Origin: Luteithermobacter gelatinilyticus
GTDB lineage: Bacteria; Pseudomonadota; Alphaproteobacteria; Sphingomonadales; Emcibacteraceae
Assembly: GCF_005849285.1 (NCBI RefSeq)
Contig: NZ_CP040517.1
Coordinates: 1,494,501 to 1,558,500, forward strand
Length of the DNA: 64,000 bases
Direction of reading: 5' to 3'
Part shown: positions 6,232 to 46,160 of the stretch, in pieces
How positions within the stretch are numbered: the first letter of the stretch is position 1
Layout of the letters: the number at the start of each line of letters is the position of its first letter
Made by a program: the position numbers and the translations under genes
The notes under the pieces: generated by a model
The model's input: only the letters and a program-made list of their open reading frames with translations
What the model was told of the DNA's origin: nothing
The model's database searches: none

Positions 6232-6257
6232 TCCGTTTACACAGTATCGGATCAAAG

Positions 6258-6289
6258 AGCCGTCCTGGGACTCTCAGGGCGGCTTTTTT
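6258..6289 (+). terminator. terminator of rplM-rpsI
   Basis: AGCCGTCCTG (6258-6267) pairs with CAGGGCGGCT (6275-6284), with one G-U pair, and runs into six T residues. Confidence 0.9.
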
Positions 6290-6307: not shown

Positions 6308-6322
6308 TTAACAAGGTGTTAA
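6308..6322. promoter_or_regulatory. perfect CtrA-type box before the dead GGDEF-EAL pair
   Basis: TTAA-CAAGGTG-TTAA matches the Caulobacter CtrA consensus TTAA-N7-TTAA without mismatch. It lies 82 bases before the chosen start at 6404, where an activator could act. Confidence 0.55.
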
Positions 6323-6403
6323 TATTTGATGGAATAATCATTGGTATACTGGTTTGTTAAGGACTTTATGACATACGGGCGAATTCCAAGGGATCATCCT
6401 GAA

Positions 6404-7813
6404 ATGAAGCAAATAAAGCTTAAAAATATTCTGGAAAGCCTGTTTTTTGATGATGATTCGTCCCGGGCCGGAGACCAGAATTCATCTTCGACGCTGCCCA
6501 GGATGTCTCAAGTGGTCCCGTCTCGAAATCTCAGCTCCCTGACCGAAGATAAGCTTCTGAAAATCCTTACCCATAATTCCTTTCTGAATACCGGGCGTGT
6601 GCAGCTTCTTGGGCTCGAAGCACTTAAAACAAAACTTGGCGAAAAGTGGCCGGGGCTGCGGGAAAAAATTCTTGATGCCCTGCATCAGATCGTAAACAAA
6701 AGGCTGCGTGATGAAGATGTGTTTTTTTCCATCAATGATGAAGAACATCTTATTGTATTTTCTTATCTCGCAGAAGACAGCGCCCGGCTGGTCTGCGCCA
6801 AGATACTTCAGGAACTCTCGGAAAGGTTTCTGGGCTCGGCGGAGACTAGTGATATTGTCGTGCGCACGGCCATCGGAAAACTGGATGGCGAACTGCTTTT
6901 TGAACCCAGTTTTCTGGACGACATCCTTACAAAGCCACCTGTACCCCCCTCGACGTTAAAGCACGAGGAAGGCACCAATCAAAATCCAAAACCACCTTGT
7001 TCTTCTGTTTCTTCTGTCCAGGACAAAATTTCGAAAGTGGTTTCTACGAGCTGTTCTCAGGGGGGGCTGAAATGGGTTGAGCCTGTCTTTATGCCTTTGT
7101 GGGACAGCAACCATCAGGTCATTTCGACCTATGCCATGAATTGCAGGCTGAAAAGCAGGACCCTTTCCGCTGGCGGATATGCCGTTTTGTCAAAAACAAT
7201 GAAACGTCAGGACAAAATCGCTCTGGATTATTTTCTGTTTGAGACCTGCCGGGAAATGATGCAGGAATTTTATGCCAATAAATTCAGGGCTATTTTTTCC
7301 ATCCCGGTGAGTTATGAAACCCTTTTTACCCCGGAGTTACTGGCCTCCTATCTGCAATTATGTCGCAAAATGCCGGAGGAATTGTGTCGCTATGTTTCCT
7401 TTACCCTGGTGAATTTTCCACCGGGAATTCCTGAAGCTAAACTCAGATATATCACGGGGCTTCTCAAAAAATATTGCCGCCTTATCATTTTGCACTGTCA
7501 TGAATTTATTCCTCAGGATATCGGTTTCTACAAGGAATGCCAGATCAAAGGGGTGAGCATCAACCTTGCGCCGCCGTCCCGCAACAGCGCCGTTTATTGG
7601 GCCGGGCTGGCGCGAATGACGGCCAAATGTCACCAGAAGTCGATGCAGGCCATTTTGTTGAATGTGCAAAGTTTGGAAAATCTGCTGTTGGCGCGCGAGG
7701 CCGGCTTTGATTATATTGCGGGAGCAGTGATCAGGGAAAACACCGCGATTCCCGGACATATGGTGCGTCTGTCCTGGAAGGAATTGCTGGCCGGTAAAAA
7801 ACCGACATTCTAG
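6404..7813 (+). CDS. degenerate GGDEF-EAL-like protein, copy 1
   Basis: 469 residues from ATG 6404 (AAGGGA upstream); the frame also allows a start at 6341. The C-terminal half follows the EAL fold. FMPLWDSNHQVISTYAMNCR aligns with the YQPIVDL...VEALLRW strand, and NVQSLENLLLAREAGFDYIAGAVI aligns with the AEGVET...LGCDYxQGYLI segment. EAL itself is AMN, and the acidic metal ligands and the DDFG loop are missing, so phosphodiesterase activity is very unlikely. The middle region (DVFFSINDEEHLIVFSYL) resembles a GGDEF domain without the motif. A paralog follows 84 bases downstream. A role as a c-di-GMP or protein-binding regulator is inference. Confidence 0.75.
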   Translation: MKQIKLKNILESLFFDDDSSRAGDQNSSSTLPRMSQVVPSRNLSSLTEDKLLKILTHNSFLNTGRVQLLGLEALKTKLGEKWPGLREKILDALHQIVNKRLRDEDVFFSINDEEHLIVFSYLAEDSARLVCAKILQELSERFLGSAETSDIVVRTAIGKLDGELLFEPSFLDDILTKPPVPPSTLKHEEGTNQNPKPPCSSVSSVQDKISKVVSTSCSQGGLKWVEPVFMPLWDSNHQVISTYAMNCRLKSRTLSAGGYAVLSKTMKRQDKIALDYFLFETCREMMQEFYANKFRAIFSIPVSYETLFTPELLASYLQLCRKMPEELCRYVSFTLVNFPPGIPEAKLRYITGLLKKYCRLIILHCHEFIPQDIGFYKECQIKGVSINLAPPSRNSAVYWAGLARMTAKCHQKSMQAILLNVQSLENLLLAREAGFDYIAGAVIRENTAIPGHMVRLSWKELLAGKKPTF

Positions 7814-7897
7814 TCAGGGGTTTATGTGTCGTGGCCTTGATGCAATGGGGAATGTTTTCGGCGCACGCGTAGTGGATGTAACGAGGGTGACTAGAAA

Positions 7898-9202
7898 GTG
7901 TTAAATTTTTTCAGGTCCAAAAAAAGAACTCCAAAGCCTTCGCCGCCCAGAGAAAGAACGCAAAAACCTGCGGAACAGGTTTCTGTGGCAACCTCTCCCG
8001 CCAAGATAATTTCCGAAGCCAAGTTGCAGGAAATCATGGCCAATGACGATCTGGCCCTGGCCGGGCGGGCACAGTTGATCAGTCTACACGCCATTAAAAA
8101 CCGGTTGGGGGAAAAATGGGCCTCGCTCAAAGACAGGATGTTTCCTGTTTTTGAGAACTGTTTTGAAAGGCGGTTCGGAAACCGGGAAAAGATCTATAAA
8201 AAATCGGAAGTCGAATATATTGTCATTTTCTCCGGTCAATTGGCGGCCACAAAATCGTCCCGGGATATGGTGGAAATGTGCCGCACTGTGCTGGAGGAAG
8301 TCGGGCGGAAATTTACTGGGGAATATATGCCGGATCAGGAAGAGGTCAGAACCGTTTTCGGTTATGAGGACGGTGTTTTTGCCTTTACGCCTGAAGACCG
8401 CGAAAAACTGAAACAGAAGCCGGAGCAAGAGGAAGACAAGAGCCGGTTGGATCTGTTTATCAGCGGGGAAACTTTCGATATTGTTTACCGACCTCTCTGG
8501 AACGTCAAACACCAAACCATTACAACCTATACCGTCCATGCCCGCAGCACTGCGGCGGACGGCAGCATGCGATATGATTACAATGTGCTGAAGGATAAAA
8601 CGTCACTGGAAGCAAAAATCGGTCTGGACTGGATTTTGCTTGAAGATGCCGCTCTTACCATGCAGGGGCTCTATGACAATAAGTTCCGCACCATCTATAC
8701 CATCCCGGTTAGTTATGAAACGGTTTTCAGCAAAGAACGGCTGAAAGGATTTACAGGGCAGTGTCAGAAAATTCCTGAAGAACTGCGCAAATACGTCATC
8801 TTTAATCTGACGCTGTGTCCCGCAGGTATCCCGCAATCGAAACTGCAGATGATTGTCGTCTGGCTCAAACCCTATTGTAATTCCATCCAGATCGACCTCA
8901 CGACACTTCCGCGGGATCTGCAAAAATATAAAATTCCAGGGCTCTCCTATATGAAATATGATTTGCCCAGAGTGCTGAAAGACACCAAAAAAACCTGGAT
9001 GGACCTTGCGGAATTTTCCATCAAATGCCGCAAGCTTGATCTGAAGACCGTGATCGGTAATGTGAATACAGTCGATCATGCCATGCTGGCCCGGGAAATA
9101 GGTGCCAATTTTATTTCGGGTGATATAATAGGCGACTACTGTGATATCCCGGAACATATGCAACGCAGGAGTTGGCAAGAAGTCGTTGAGCGCACCGGAT
9201 AA
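7898..9202 (+). CDS. degenerate GGDEF-EAL-like protein, copy 2
   Basis: 434 residues starting at GTG 7898 behind GAGGGTG. It is a paralog of the preceding gene along the whole length: both share the RxQLxxLxAIKxRLGEKW segment, a degenerate GGDEF-like part, and an EAL-fold C-terminus (IVYRPLWNVKHQTITTYTVH, and VIGNVNTVDHAMLAREIGAN with FISGDII). Where active enzymes have EAL this copy reads TVH, and DDFGTG and AEGVET are lost. The tandem arrangement implies duplication and probably joint transcription from the upstream CtrA box. Activity as an enzyme is not expected. Confidence 0.75.
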   Translation: MLNFFRSKKRTPKPSPPRERTQKPAEQVSVATSPAKIISEAKLQEIMANDDLALAGRAQLISLHAIKNRLGEKWASLKDRMFPVFENCFERRFGNREKIYKKSEVEYIVIFSGQLAATKSSRDMVEMCRTVLEEVGRKFTGEYMPDQEEVRTVFGYEDGVFAFTPEDREKLKQKPEQEEDKSRLDLFISGETFDIVYRPLWNVKHQTITTYTVHARSTAADGSMRYDYNVLKDKTSLEAKIGLDWILLEDAALTMQGLYDNKFRTIYTIPVSYETVFSKERLKGFTGQCQKIPEELRKYVIFNLTLCPAGIPQSKLQMIVVWLKPYCNSIQIDLTTLPRDLQKYKIPGLSYMKYDLPRVLKDTKKTWMDLAEFSIKCRKLDLKTVIGNVNTVDHAMLAREIGANFISGDIIGDYCDIPEHMQRRSWQEVVERTG

Positions 9203-32939: not shown

Positions 32940-32954
32940 TTAACGTGAGTTTAA
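32940..32954. promoter_or_regulatory. perfect CtrA-type box before the DUF2336 gene
   Basis: TTAA-CGTGAGT-TTAA, exact match to TTAA-N7-TTAA. It lies 61 bases from the symporter start and 137 bases from the DUF2336 start, so either gene could be the target. Confidence 0.5.
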
Positions 32955-33090
32955 CCACTTTTGTTGAAAATGTGACAAAGTAAAGCGCTAGGAACAACTT
33001 ATTTTGCTTTCAATCTCTTGTGATGATGCATCGTGTATTTTCTAAAGGGCTGAAAACAAATATCTTTCATTAATAAAGGCGTGAGTTTCA

Positions 33091-34209
33091 ATGACGACCA
33101 ATCTGACCAATGCTGACGTGCGCAAACTGCTTGAGGATCCATCTGCGGAAAATCGTGCCGAAGCAGCCCAGAAAGTAAGCACCCATTTTTCCTCCGGCAA
33201 GATGACAGAGGCCGAAAGAAAAATTGCTGAAGACATCTTCAAGCTTATGGTTAAGGATGCGGAAATTCGGGTGCGTCAGGCCCTTTCTGCCAGCCTGAAG
33301 GATAACCCGGATATTCCCCGTGATGTGGCGGTCACACTGGCCAGCGACGTGGAAGAAGTGTCGCTGCCGATCCTGGAATTTTCAGAGGTTCTGACAGATG
33401 AGGACCTGATGGAACTGGTGGCCGGCAGCAGCGCCGAACGGCAGAAGGCTATTGCTCGGCGCAATAATCTGTCTGCGGATGTGGCGGATGCCATAGTTGA
33501 AAACAGTGACGACGAAGAGGTGGTGGCAACTCTCGTTGGAAATGAAACCGCGGCGCTGCGGGAAAACACCATGGAAAAAGTGCTGGACAAGTTCGGCGAA
33601 AGCGAAAAGGTCAACACGCCGCTGGCCCAGCGCGGCCAGCTTCCGTTGAAAGTCGCCGAACGGCTGGTTTATCTGGTGTCGGAAAAAGTTCGGGATCATT
33701 TGATGACCCATCATGAAATGTCGCCAGACATGGCAATGGATCTGCTGCTGAGCGCCCGGGAACGGGCAACCATCAGCCTTCTTGGCGATGGTGCCGATGT
33801 GATGGATGTGCGCCAGCTTGTTGATCAGCTTTATGACAATGGCCGTCTTACTCATACGTTGATCCTGCGGGCCCTGTGTATGGGCGATCTGGTGTTTTTC
33901 GAGGCGGCGATGGCCAAGTTGTGCCGTATCCCCGTCAGCAACGCCTATAAACTTATCCACGACCGGGGAGATCTCGGACTGAATGCCGTCTTCAAGCAAG
34001 CCAAAATGCCCGAAGGTTTGCATCCTCTGATCAGAGCGGCTCTTGACGTGGCAAAGGATATGTCTGTGAGTGCCGGTGAAGACAGAGAACGTTTCCGCAG
34101 CCGGATGATTGAGCGGGTTCTCACCTATTGCGAAAACGATGTGGACCCGGAAAATCTGGATTATTTTATCACCAAACTTGGAAATTCGGGAGCATCAGAA
34201 GCGGCCTGA
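33091..34209 (+). CDS. DUF2336-domain protein
   Basis: 372 residues, almost all helical with HEAT-like repeats (RVRQALSASLKDNPDIPRDVA, IARRNNLSADVADAIV, LAQRGQLPLKVAERLVYLVSEKV). This is the alphaproteobacterial DUF2336 family, whose function is unknown; members are often found near cell-cycle or motility genes. The upstream CtrA-type box fits that association, which remains inference. A bidirectional-looking terminator follows, then the convergent TipN-like gene. Confidence 0.85.
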   Translation: MTTNLTNADVRKLLEDPSAENRAEAAQKVSTHFSSGKMTEAERKIAEDIFKLMVKDAEIRVRQALSASLKDNPDIPRDVAVTLASDVEEVSLPILEFSEVLTDEDLMELVAGSSAERQKAIARRNNLSADVADAIVENSDDEEVVATLVGNETAALRENTMEKVLDKFGESEKVNTPLAQRGQLPLKVAERLVYLVSEKVRDHLMTHHEMSPDMAMDLLLSARERATISLLGDGADVMDVRQLVDQLYDNGRLTHTLILRALCMGDLVFFEAAMAKLCRIPVSNAYKLIHDRGDLGLNAVFKQAKMPEGLHPLIRAALDVAKDMSVSAGEDRERFRSRMIERVLTYCENDVDPENLDYFITKLGNSGASEAA

Positions 34210-45149: not shown

Positions 45150-45175
45150 TTAACCTTTTATTAACAGCTTATAGC
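45150..45175 (+). promoter_or_regulatory. flagellin promoter with CtrA-type box
   Basis: TTAA-CCTTTTA-TTAA (45150-45164) is a perfect CtrA consensus. It overlaps a possible sigma-70 promoter, TTGTTA (45147-45152), 17 bases, TATAGC (45170-45175). No GG-N10-GC sigma-54 element is seen here. Confidence 0.55.
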
Positions 45176-45317: not shown

Positions 45318-46160
45318 ATGGCATTTTCAGTCAACACCAATGCAGGCGCTCTTTTCGCTCTGCAGAACCTCAATTCCACCAATTCCTCTCTTGATACTGT
45401 TCAGAACCGCATCAACACGGGCCTGAAGGTTGCCAGCGCCAAAGACAATGCAGCGGTTTTCGCCATTGCCCAGGGTCAGCGGGCCGACCTTGCCGGGCTG
45501 GAGTCAGTGAAATCTTCACTGGATCGGGCAACCAGCTCTGTTGACGTGGCGCTTGCGGCGGCCGAGGCCGTTTCAGACCTTCTGATTCAGTTGAAAGAAA
45601 AAGCAACAGCAGCAACTGACCCTGGAGCAGACGCCGACGCTCGTACGGCTCTGAATGACGAGTTCCAGAACCTTCTGAGCCAGATTGATACGGTTGTCAA
45701 CAATGCCGAGTTTAATGGCGTGAATGCCGTGAAGACCGGTGGTGCAAATATTCAGGCTCTTGTGGCTCTGCCGACAGGCGCCAATACGGCTGGCGATTAT
45801 TCTATTACCGTGACGGCTACGGATATTTCCGCAAGTAACGGTCTTGACCTGACATCAGGTTTGGCCATTACCACCGCTGGCGGGGCTTCCGGTGCTCTGG
45901 CCAAGATTACTGCCGCAGAAAGCACGCTGAACACGTTCTTGTCCAAACTGGGCGCTGGCGCAAAACGCGTGGAAATTCAGCGGACCTTTACGAACAAACT
46001 GGCCGACCAGATTGAAGTTGGTATCGGGAACCTGGTGGATGCCGATCTGGCTCGTGAAAGCGCGAACCTGCAATCACTGCAGGTGAAGCAGCAGTTGGGT
46101 CTGCAGGCGCTCTCCATTGCTAATCAGGCGCCGGGAACCGTACTCTCCCTCTTCCGGTAA
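45318..46160 (+). CDS. flagellin, copy 1
   Basis: 280 residues with the conserved flagellin D0/D1 ends: SVNTNAGALFALQNLNSTNSS and IQRTFTNKLADQIEVGIGNL, ending LQALSIANQAPGTVLSLFR. The middle (TAGDYSITVTATDISASNGL) is the short variable region, so this is a small alphaproteobacterial-type flagellin. It is about as similar to copy 2 (47 kb, opposite strand) as paralogs usually are at the ends, with a different centre. It has a CtrA-type box and a hairpin-rich leader. Confidence 0.96.
   Translation: MAFSVNTNAGALFALQNLNSTNSSLDTVQNRINTGLKVASAKDNAAVFAIAQGQRADLAGLESVKSSLDRATSSVDVALAAAEAVSDLLIQLKEKATAATDPGADADARTALNDEFQNLLSQIDTVVNNAEFNGVNAVKTGGANIQALVALPTGANTAGDYSITVTATDISASNGLDLTSGLAITTAGGASGALAKITAAESTLNTFLSKLGAGAKRVEIQRTFTNKLADQIEVGIGNLVDADLARESANLQSLQVKQQLGLQALSIANQAPGTVLSLFR

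Follow-up and report, generated by a model that had tools for sequence, protein, structure and literature searches.

Degenerate GGDEF-EAL paralogs of Luteithermobacter gelatinilyticus belong to an alphaproteobacterial family with a probable link to CtrA

Why would a bacterium keep two adjacent genes for GGDEF-EAL proteins whose active sites are both gone? The question is raised by a stretch of 64,000 nucleotides from Luteithermobacter gelatinilyticus (contig NZ_CP040517.1, positions 1,494,501 to 1,558,500), which we refer to as the window. Two of its genes encode degenerate GGDEF-EAL proteins: P0001 (6404-7813, 469 amino acids) and P0002 (7898-9202, 434 amino acids, with a GTG start). (These genes, their domains, and the terminator and boxes that we describe below are all on the + strand.) The genes are 84 base pairs apart, and their products are paralogs (131/427 residues identical, or 31%; expectation value E = 4e-68). 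A sequence-only reading of this DNA had already placed both open reading frames where we find them. It proposed that they are catalytically dead and have a selected non-enzymatic function, perhaps ligand sensing or protein binding in a CtrA-linked pathway. On balance, we lean towards the view that they are CtrA-controlled, non-enzymatic adaptor proteins.

Both proteins are predicted to have the GGDEF-EAL tandem fold, which is supported by three independent tests. First, we built AlphaFold2 models on six related sequences. (The predicted local distance difference test score was 76 for P0002 and 72 for P0001, and the N-termini are short low-confidence stretches.) In a Foldseek comparison with the PDB, the best matches to the P0002 model were the GGDEF-EAL tandems PA0575, MorA, PA0861, and LapD (E = 3e-14 to 2e-13). 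With VIA-align, the EAL part of P0002 matches the EAL domain of BifA (Z = 21.8, root-mean-square deviation of 3.4 Å over 235 residues), and the EAL part of P0001 matches the EAL domain of FimX (Z = 21.4, 3.3 Å over 230 residues). The deviation of the full-tandem matches is above 14 Å, so the placement of the domains is either unlike that in solved structures or unreliably predicted. Second, we used hhalign to compare a profile of 42 family members with intact GGDEF-EAL proteins from the same genome and from one relative. This gave a probability of 95.5 and E = 1.4e-8, with both domains covered. Third, when the family profile was compared to PDB sequences, FimX came first (E = 3e-9) and LapD next (E = 3e-7). 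These two were found by the family profile alone; a phmmer search of PDB sequences with the single sequence of P0002 gave only chance matches. Similarly, Pfam's EAL model matches P0001 and P0002 below its gathering cut-off (17.8 and 14.2 bits, versus 31.3), its GGDEF model matches neither, and an NCBIfam scan of the pair found nothing of note. The EAL barrel and GGDEF-like domain described in the sequence-only reading are borne out by all three tests; structure prediction and profile-profile comparison point to a fold related to GGDEF-EAL, not to an unrelated one.

In the aligned profile columns, the catalytic motifs of both domains are missing. The GGDEF-like domain of P0001 (6542-6937, about residues 47-178, as placed by model secondary structure and profile columns) has INDEEH at the GGDEF column, and that of P0002 (8012-8413, about residues 39-172) has SEVEY. 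In the EAL-like barrels (7061-7777, about residues 220-458, in P0001; 8459-9169, about residues 188-424, in P0002), the EAL column reads AMN (7133-7141) and TVH (8531-8539), respectively. The metal-binding asparagine of the NxS motif is replaced by Pro301 in P0001 and by Pro270 in P0002. DDFG is absent from both proteins, AEGVE has become GNVN in P0002 and LNVQ in P0001 (with loss of the glutamates), and the glutamine of QG has become S in P0002 and A in P0001 (SG and AG). These columns confirm the loss of EAL, DDFG, the AEGVET glutamate, and the GGDEF motif that had been read from the sequence.

The same losses extend throughout the family. The EAL glutamate is found in 0/42 aligned members, and none of the 42 is an ortholog with intact EAL residues. 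The asparagine of NxS is kept in just 3/42 members (30/42 have proline instead), the glutamine of YQP in 3/42, and the second glutamate of AEGVE in 1/42. What the family does conserve is the first barrel strand, YxPxW (proline in 41/42 members and tryptophan in 39/42), along with the aspartate of the next helix, the GxP turn, and the final glycine. Also, a motif that is common in the family, (I/V)P(V/L)x(Y/F)xT(L/V), replaces the metal-binding strand. We considered the arginine of ExLxR (R216 in P0002, R248 in P0001) as a further shared signature and rejected it, as it is present in only 10/42 members. Judging from the alignment, the pair are not isolated decayed paralogs.

Could these proteins still bind c-di-GMP (cyclic di-GMP)? 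Neither P0001 nor P0002 has a canonical c-di-GMP site, and we infer that they do not bind it. This bears on the main rival to the adaptor reading, which is that they are receptors like LapD or FimX: c-di-GMP would bind a remodelled pocket in the barrel, without catalysis, and would switch the state of the protein. FimX and LapD, which are both non-catalytic GGDEF-EAL receptors, are indeed the nearest solved relatives by sequence. And in this genome, CtrA-type boxes (discussed below) are also found upstream of genes for c-di-GMP enzymes and PilZ proteins. But the glutamine of YQP, the arginine of ExLxR, the asparagine of NxS, and the glutamates of AEGVE are not conserved in the family, and a Pfam scan of the pair turned up no input domain (transmembrane, HAMP, or PAS). 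We consider a c-di-GMP receptor to be unlikely.

Alternatively, the mouth of the old active site, relined with Pro, Tyr/Phe, and Thr, might bind a different metabolite or nucleotide, which would make these proteins sensors of another small ligand. The replacement motif is common across a divergent family, and the YdiV structure is an example of a groove that has persisted, with phosphate and glycerol held in it (PMC3510510). But the conserved residues may be simply structural, and there is no candidate for the ligand, so this strikes us as rather improbable. As between the ligand sensing and the protein binding that had both been suggested for the pair, the apparent loss of the c-di-GMP site favors protein binding.

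If the catalytic residues are gone, are these genes simply decaying? For recent pairs in relatives, the ratio of nonsynonymous to synonymous substitution rates (dN/dS) is 0.05, 0.20, 0.20, and 0.24; these estimates show purifying selection on the family in the relatives. Between P0002 and its orthologue in the related genome G001, dN/dS is 0.18, but dS is near saturation. In a phylogenetic tree, P0001 groups with two copies from G001 and P0002 groups with another copy from G001, and both nodes are starred. In G001, one P0001-like copy and the P0002-like copy still lie between rpsI and argC, with PAS, methyl-accepting chemotaxis protein, and JmjC/cupin genes in between. The tree and this gene order imply that the duplication predates the split of the two genera (the other is genus g2) and that both copies were kept.

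It is true that all of the catalytic residues are lost, that P0002 lies on a long branch of the tree and evolves fast, and that one relative (L121) has in-frame stops. Nevertheless, we give almost no credence to the idea that the pair are functionless, decaying remnants of a GGDEF-EAL enzyme, as this is already contradicted by the evidence of selection: reading frames are intact over deep divergence, dN/dS is 0.05-0.24, two copies are found in two genera, and an upstream box is conserved. The proposal that the retained copies have a selected non-enzymatic function is supported by these ratios, by the lack of the EAL glutamate in all 42 members, and by the presence of both copies in a second genus. 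(The gene with in-frame stops, L121:7704-8984 on contig 63 of genome G011, is the second copy in that genome. Its TGA and TAA reflect either pseudogenization or a mistake in the assembly; G011's other copy is intact.)

How is the pair controlled? A strong intrinsic terminator at the end of the rplM-rpsI operon (6254-6289; a 16-pair hairpin and then U6; -24.7 kcal/mol, z = -4.4) separates rpsI from the pair, so transcription probably starts 3' of this terminator. There, 82 base pairs before the ATG at 6404, is a perfect CtrA-type box, TTAACAAGGTGTTAA (TTAA-N7-TTAA, 6308-6322). The full CtrA site is TTAA-N7-TTAAC, and looser pairs of TTAA are also bound (PMC3692519). (P0001 might instead start upstream at an in-frame ATG, at 6369, which has a better-placed AAGGA.) P0001 is likely to be under CtrA's control, and it is plausible that P0002 is co-transcribed with it, by read-through from the box. 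We have several pieces of evidence for the link to CtrA.

First, the window contains three perfect TTAA-N7-TTAA boxes, while 0.8 are expected. The second (32940-32954) is 151 base pairs upstream of a DUF2336 gene at 33091, and the third (45150-45164) is upstream of a flagellin gene at 45318. That the motif precedes these two genes supports the idea that L. gelatinilyticus uses it as a CtrA site. (The DUF2336 gene, at 32940-34209 if the box is included, is a possible CtrA target that has not been studied.)

Second, the box is enriched roughly tenfold upstream of family genes. Between positions -250 and +120 relative to the first start, a perfect box is present for 9/48 family genes and for 11/490 other genes of the same loci, which served as the control (p = 1.4e-5). 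If one mismatch is allowed, these become 23/48 and 82/490 (p = 2.6e-6).

Third, there is the position of the boxes. At six loci (L113, L118, L120, L133, L134, and L145), 16-17 kb of sequence contains no perfect sites besides those just upstream of the family gene. Across four orthologs (L117-L120), both TTAA halves are aligned and invariant while the spacer varies. The position of the boxes is better evidence than the p values for their enrichment.

Fourth, elsewhere in the L. gelatinilyticus genome, TTAA-N7-TTAAC is found upstream of motA, ftsZ, and mraZ, and of genes for PilZ, GGDEF, GGDEF-EAL, methyl-accepting chemotaxis, and histidine-kinase proteins, as well as the flagellin gene at 45318 and the DUF2336 gene. 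These targets match known CtrA regulons, and some other sites precede unrelated genes. The genome also encodes a protein that is 77% identical to Caulobacter CtrA. Together, the perfect box, the enrichment, the aligned boxes in relatives, the CtrA-type targets, and the CtrA orthologue support the CtrA-linked pathway that had been suspected.

Several observations weigh against reading the pair as CtrA-controlled adaptors. The counts of boxes treat related genomes as independent, so the p values are too small. Many family members from high-GC (guanine and cytosine) genomes do not have a good box, and P0002 has no CtrA-type box of its own upstream. Genome-wide, the count of TTAA-N7-TTAAC is not above that of a reversed control, so the boxes are supported by position, conservation, and gene identity only. 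Finally, family genes have different neighbors in different lineages (the loci are ribosomal, fatty-acid, hydrogenase, or signalling), and genomic context therefore does not point to a partner.

We also asked if the family is tied to flagella, since its distribution relative to flagellar genes had been put forward as a check. Across the class, FliG is present in 38/39 genomes with a strong match to the family, versus 190/346 others (p ~ 1e-8). Of 60 relatives, 11/15 genomes with the family and 39/45 without it have FliG (p = 0.25). Three of the relatives (G004, which is a complete genome in a single contig, G013, and G019) keep the family gene and its box without FliG. Because the class-wide signal vanishes among close relatives, and because these three keep the gene, we rejected a strict flagellar link. 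The family is CtrA-linked, not flagellum-bound.

A strictly flagellar factor, such as a regulator of assembly or of the motor like TipF, thus seems very improbable to us. Besides the class-wide co-occurrence with FliG, it has in its favor that the CtrA-type box is common to motA and flagellin genes, and that one relative (L136) adjoins fliG. But differences in genome size may account for the class-wide signal, and L. gelatinilyticus has a separate TipF-like protein. (This EAL protein of 417 amino acids, at L005:1471-2721 or G000:C1 ~2631357-2632607 on the - strand, has a hydrophobic N-terminus, a coiled-coil-like stretch, and an altered EAL motif, FEAYSR.)

Returning to CtrA-controlled adaptors, the mechanism could be as follows. 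P0001 and P0002 would be soluble pseudo-enzymes, paralogous members of an old alphaproteobacterial family. Phosphorylated CtrA at the box at 6308-6322 would activate P0001 and probably, by read-through, P0002. The retained GGDEF and EAL folds may then bind partner proteins of the CtrA/c-di-GMP network, much as the inactive EAL domain of YdiV or LapD binds a partner. This output, protein-protein adaptation, is speculative, as is any choice of partners. Still, because the catalytic motifs and the contacts with c-di-GMP appear to be gone, while the fold, the two copies, the selection, and the box were kept, a protein-binding adaptor would be the most economical explanation. A broader proposal is that this is a novel, class-wide family of CtrA-controlled pseudo-enzymes that gave up c-di-GMP and bind a partner or another ligand via the new motif at the old active site. 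We hold this more tentatively, as something that could well be so.

How widespread is the family? (These figures are from genome searches, not from the contig scan for the 10-row alignment, with its 4 loci.) Relatives of the pair are present in 15/60 close genomes. With the family profile, matches at E ≤ 1e-10 were found in 62/385 genomes across the Alphaproteobacteria. In a phylum-wide sample, 18 genomes had matches and 16 of these are within the Alphaproteobacteria; the other two matches are weak (E ~ 1e-11) and may be ordinary EAL proteins. Named relatives are from Kordiimonadaceae and from other alphaproteobacterial metagenome-assembled genomes. Azospirillum sp. B510 and A. lipoferum 4B also carry members, which are annotated as "hypothetical protein" and lie in a hydrogenase locus. 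(On both of these plasmids, L182 and L183, the member precedes hyaD/hypC, and in A. lipoferum it also follows genes for a hydrogenase sensor and large subunit.) Several genomes have tandem copies (L132, L147, L148). Another member, L143:7916-9904, is a fusion with an open frame of 719 amino acids; by eye, a pair of GGDEF-like halves is followed by a single EAL-like half. It adjoins CheY, REC-EAL, and histidine-kinase genes.

Only 10/42 members reach E = 0.01 with Pfam's EAL model, and a scan of the 42 members found no model specific to the family in Pfam or NCBIfam. A published survey that covered the c-di-GMP genes of five orders of Alphaproteobacteria chose proteins by their Pfam domains (PMC9756655), so, given its method, it should have missed most of the family. 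We did not find the family described in the literature on degenerate EAL or GGDEF proteins in Alphaproteobacteria (subscription papers were mostly outside of our search). The L. gelatinilyticus genome also encodes another degenerate EAL-type protein that is distinct from the family (464 amino acids; L006:1483-2874 or G000:C1 ~2898507-2899898, - strand). Only the final 157 residues of this protein match Pfam's EAL model (42.8 bits), and it has lost DDFG (SIDAMD) but kept QGYY.

As for neighboring genes, P0001 and P0002 are flanked in the window by rpsI and argC. Family genes are found in two conserved gene orders, rplM-rpsI-[family]-argC and plsX-fabH-ihfA-merR-[family]. We considered these neighbors as a clue to the partner and rejected them, because both contexts look like inherited housekeeping positions. 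Some other relatives adjoin PAS/methyl-accepting chemotaxis, CheY, REC-EAL, or histidine-kinase genes. In particular, genes for a PAS-domain protein and a methyl-accepting chemotaxis protein are beside members at L130, L131, and L110, in three genomes from two distant groups.

Inactive GGDEF-EAL proteins have been known one by one (FimX, LapD, YdiV, and CsrD). Here, there is a whole family, which is found in about one-sixth of the sampled Alphaproteobacteria, often with multiple copies per genome, and mostly under Pfam's cut-offs. CtrA is the class's master regulator of motility and the cell cycle, and given the link to it, the family is a concrete candidate for a new component of the CtrA network. 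If the broader proposal above is correct, this network has an extra layer that Pfam-based surveys of c-di-GMP proteins would mostly overlook.

How do P0001 and P0002 compare with known systems? Given the Pfam cut-off and the loss of catalytic and metal-binding residues, neither would qualify as an active EAL phosphodiesterase (PF00563), although the EAL fold is predicted. Similarly, without the GG(D/E)EF motif, neither would be a diguanylate cyclase (PF00990). Given that a TTAA-N7-TTAA box precedes P0001 and that the genome encodes CtrA, P0001 appears to belong to a CtrA regulon.

Among characterized proteins, FimX from Pseudomonas and Xanthomonas (PDB:4j40, PDB:4fok) is, like the pair, a degenerate GGDEF-EAL tandem without catalysis. 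It is the family's best sequence match in the PDB (E = 3e-9) as well as the match to the EAL fold of P0001 (Z = 21.4). FimX, which binds c-di-GMP, also contains a REC and a PAS domain. In contrast, the family lacks both of these domains and does not conserve the binding residues. LapD from Pseudomonas and Vibrio (PDB:3pjw, PDB:6pwk) is another degenerate GGDEF-EAL tandem, and the second-best sequence match (E = 3e-7). It is a transmembrane HAMP receptor that depends on c-di-GMP, whereas the pair seem to be soluble, and Pfam finds no input domain in either protein. CsrD, a membrane-bound specificity factor for RNA decay in enterobacteria, resembles the pair by description, as a degenerate GGDEF-EAL tandem. 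In E. coli, CsrD was described as inactive, and a study of the interactions of GGDEF/EAL proteins took in such inactive domains as well (PMC5635695).

YdiV (RflP) from Escherichia and Salmonella is a precedent for how the pair might work, not for their architecture. Like the pair, it has the EAL fold and has lost nearly all of the catalytic residues. It lacks 8/10 of them and acts by binding to FlhD, with no binding of c-di-GMP (PMC3510510). Unlike the pair, this FlhD binder is shorter and EAL-only, with no GGDEF-like half. TipF and PopA from Caulobacter are adaptor proteins for c-di-GMP in the cell-cycle and flagellar network of Alphaproteobacteria (PMC10212136). Both of them bind c-di-GMP, which we do not expect of the family, and TipF is a membrane EAL protein. 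Overall, from their sequences and models, P0001 and P0002 appear to be of the same broad kind as FimX, LapD, and CsrD: degenerate GGDEF-EAL tandems that have lost both active sites.

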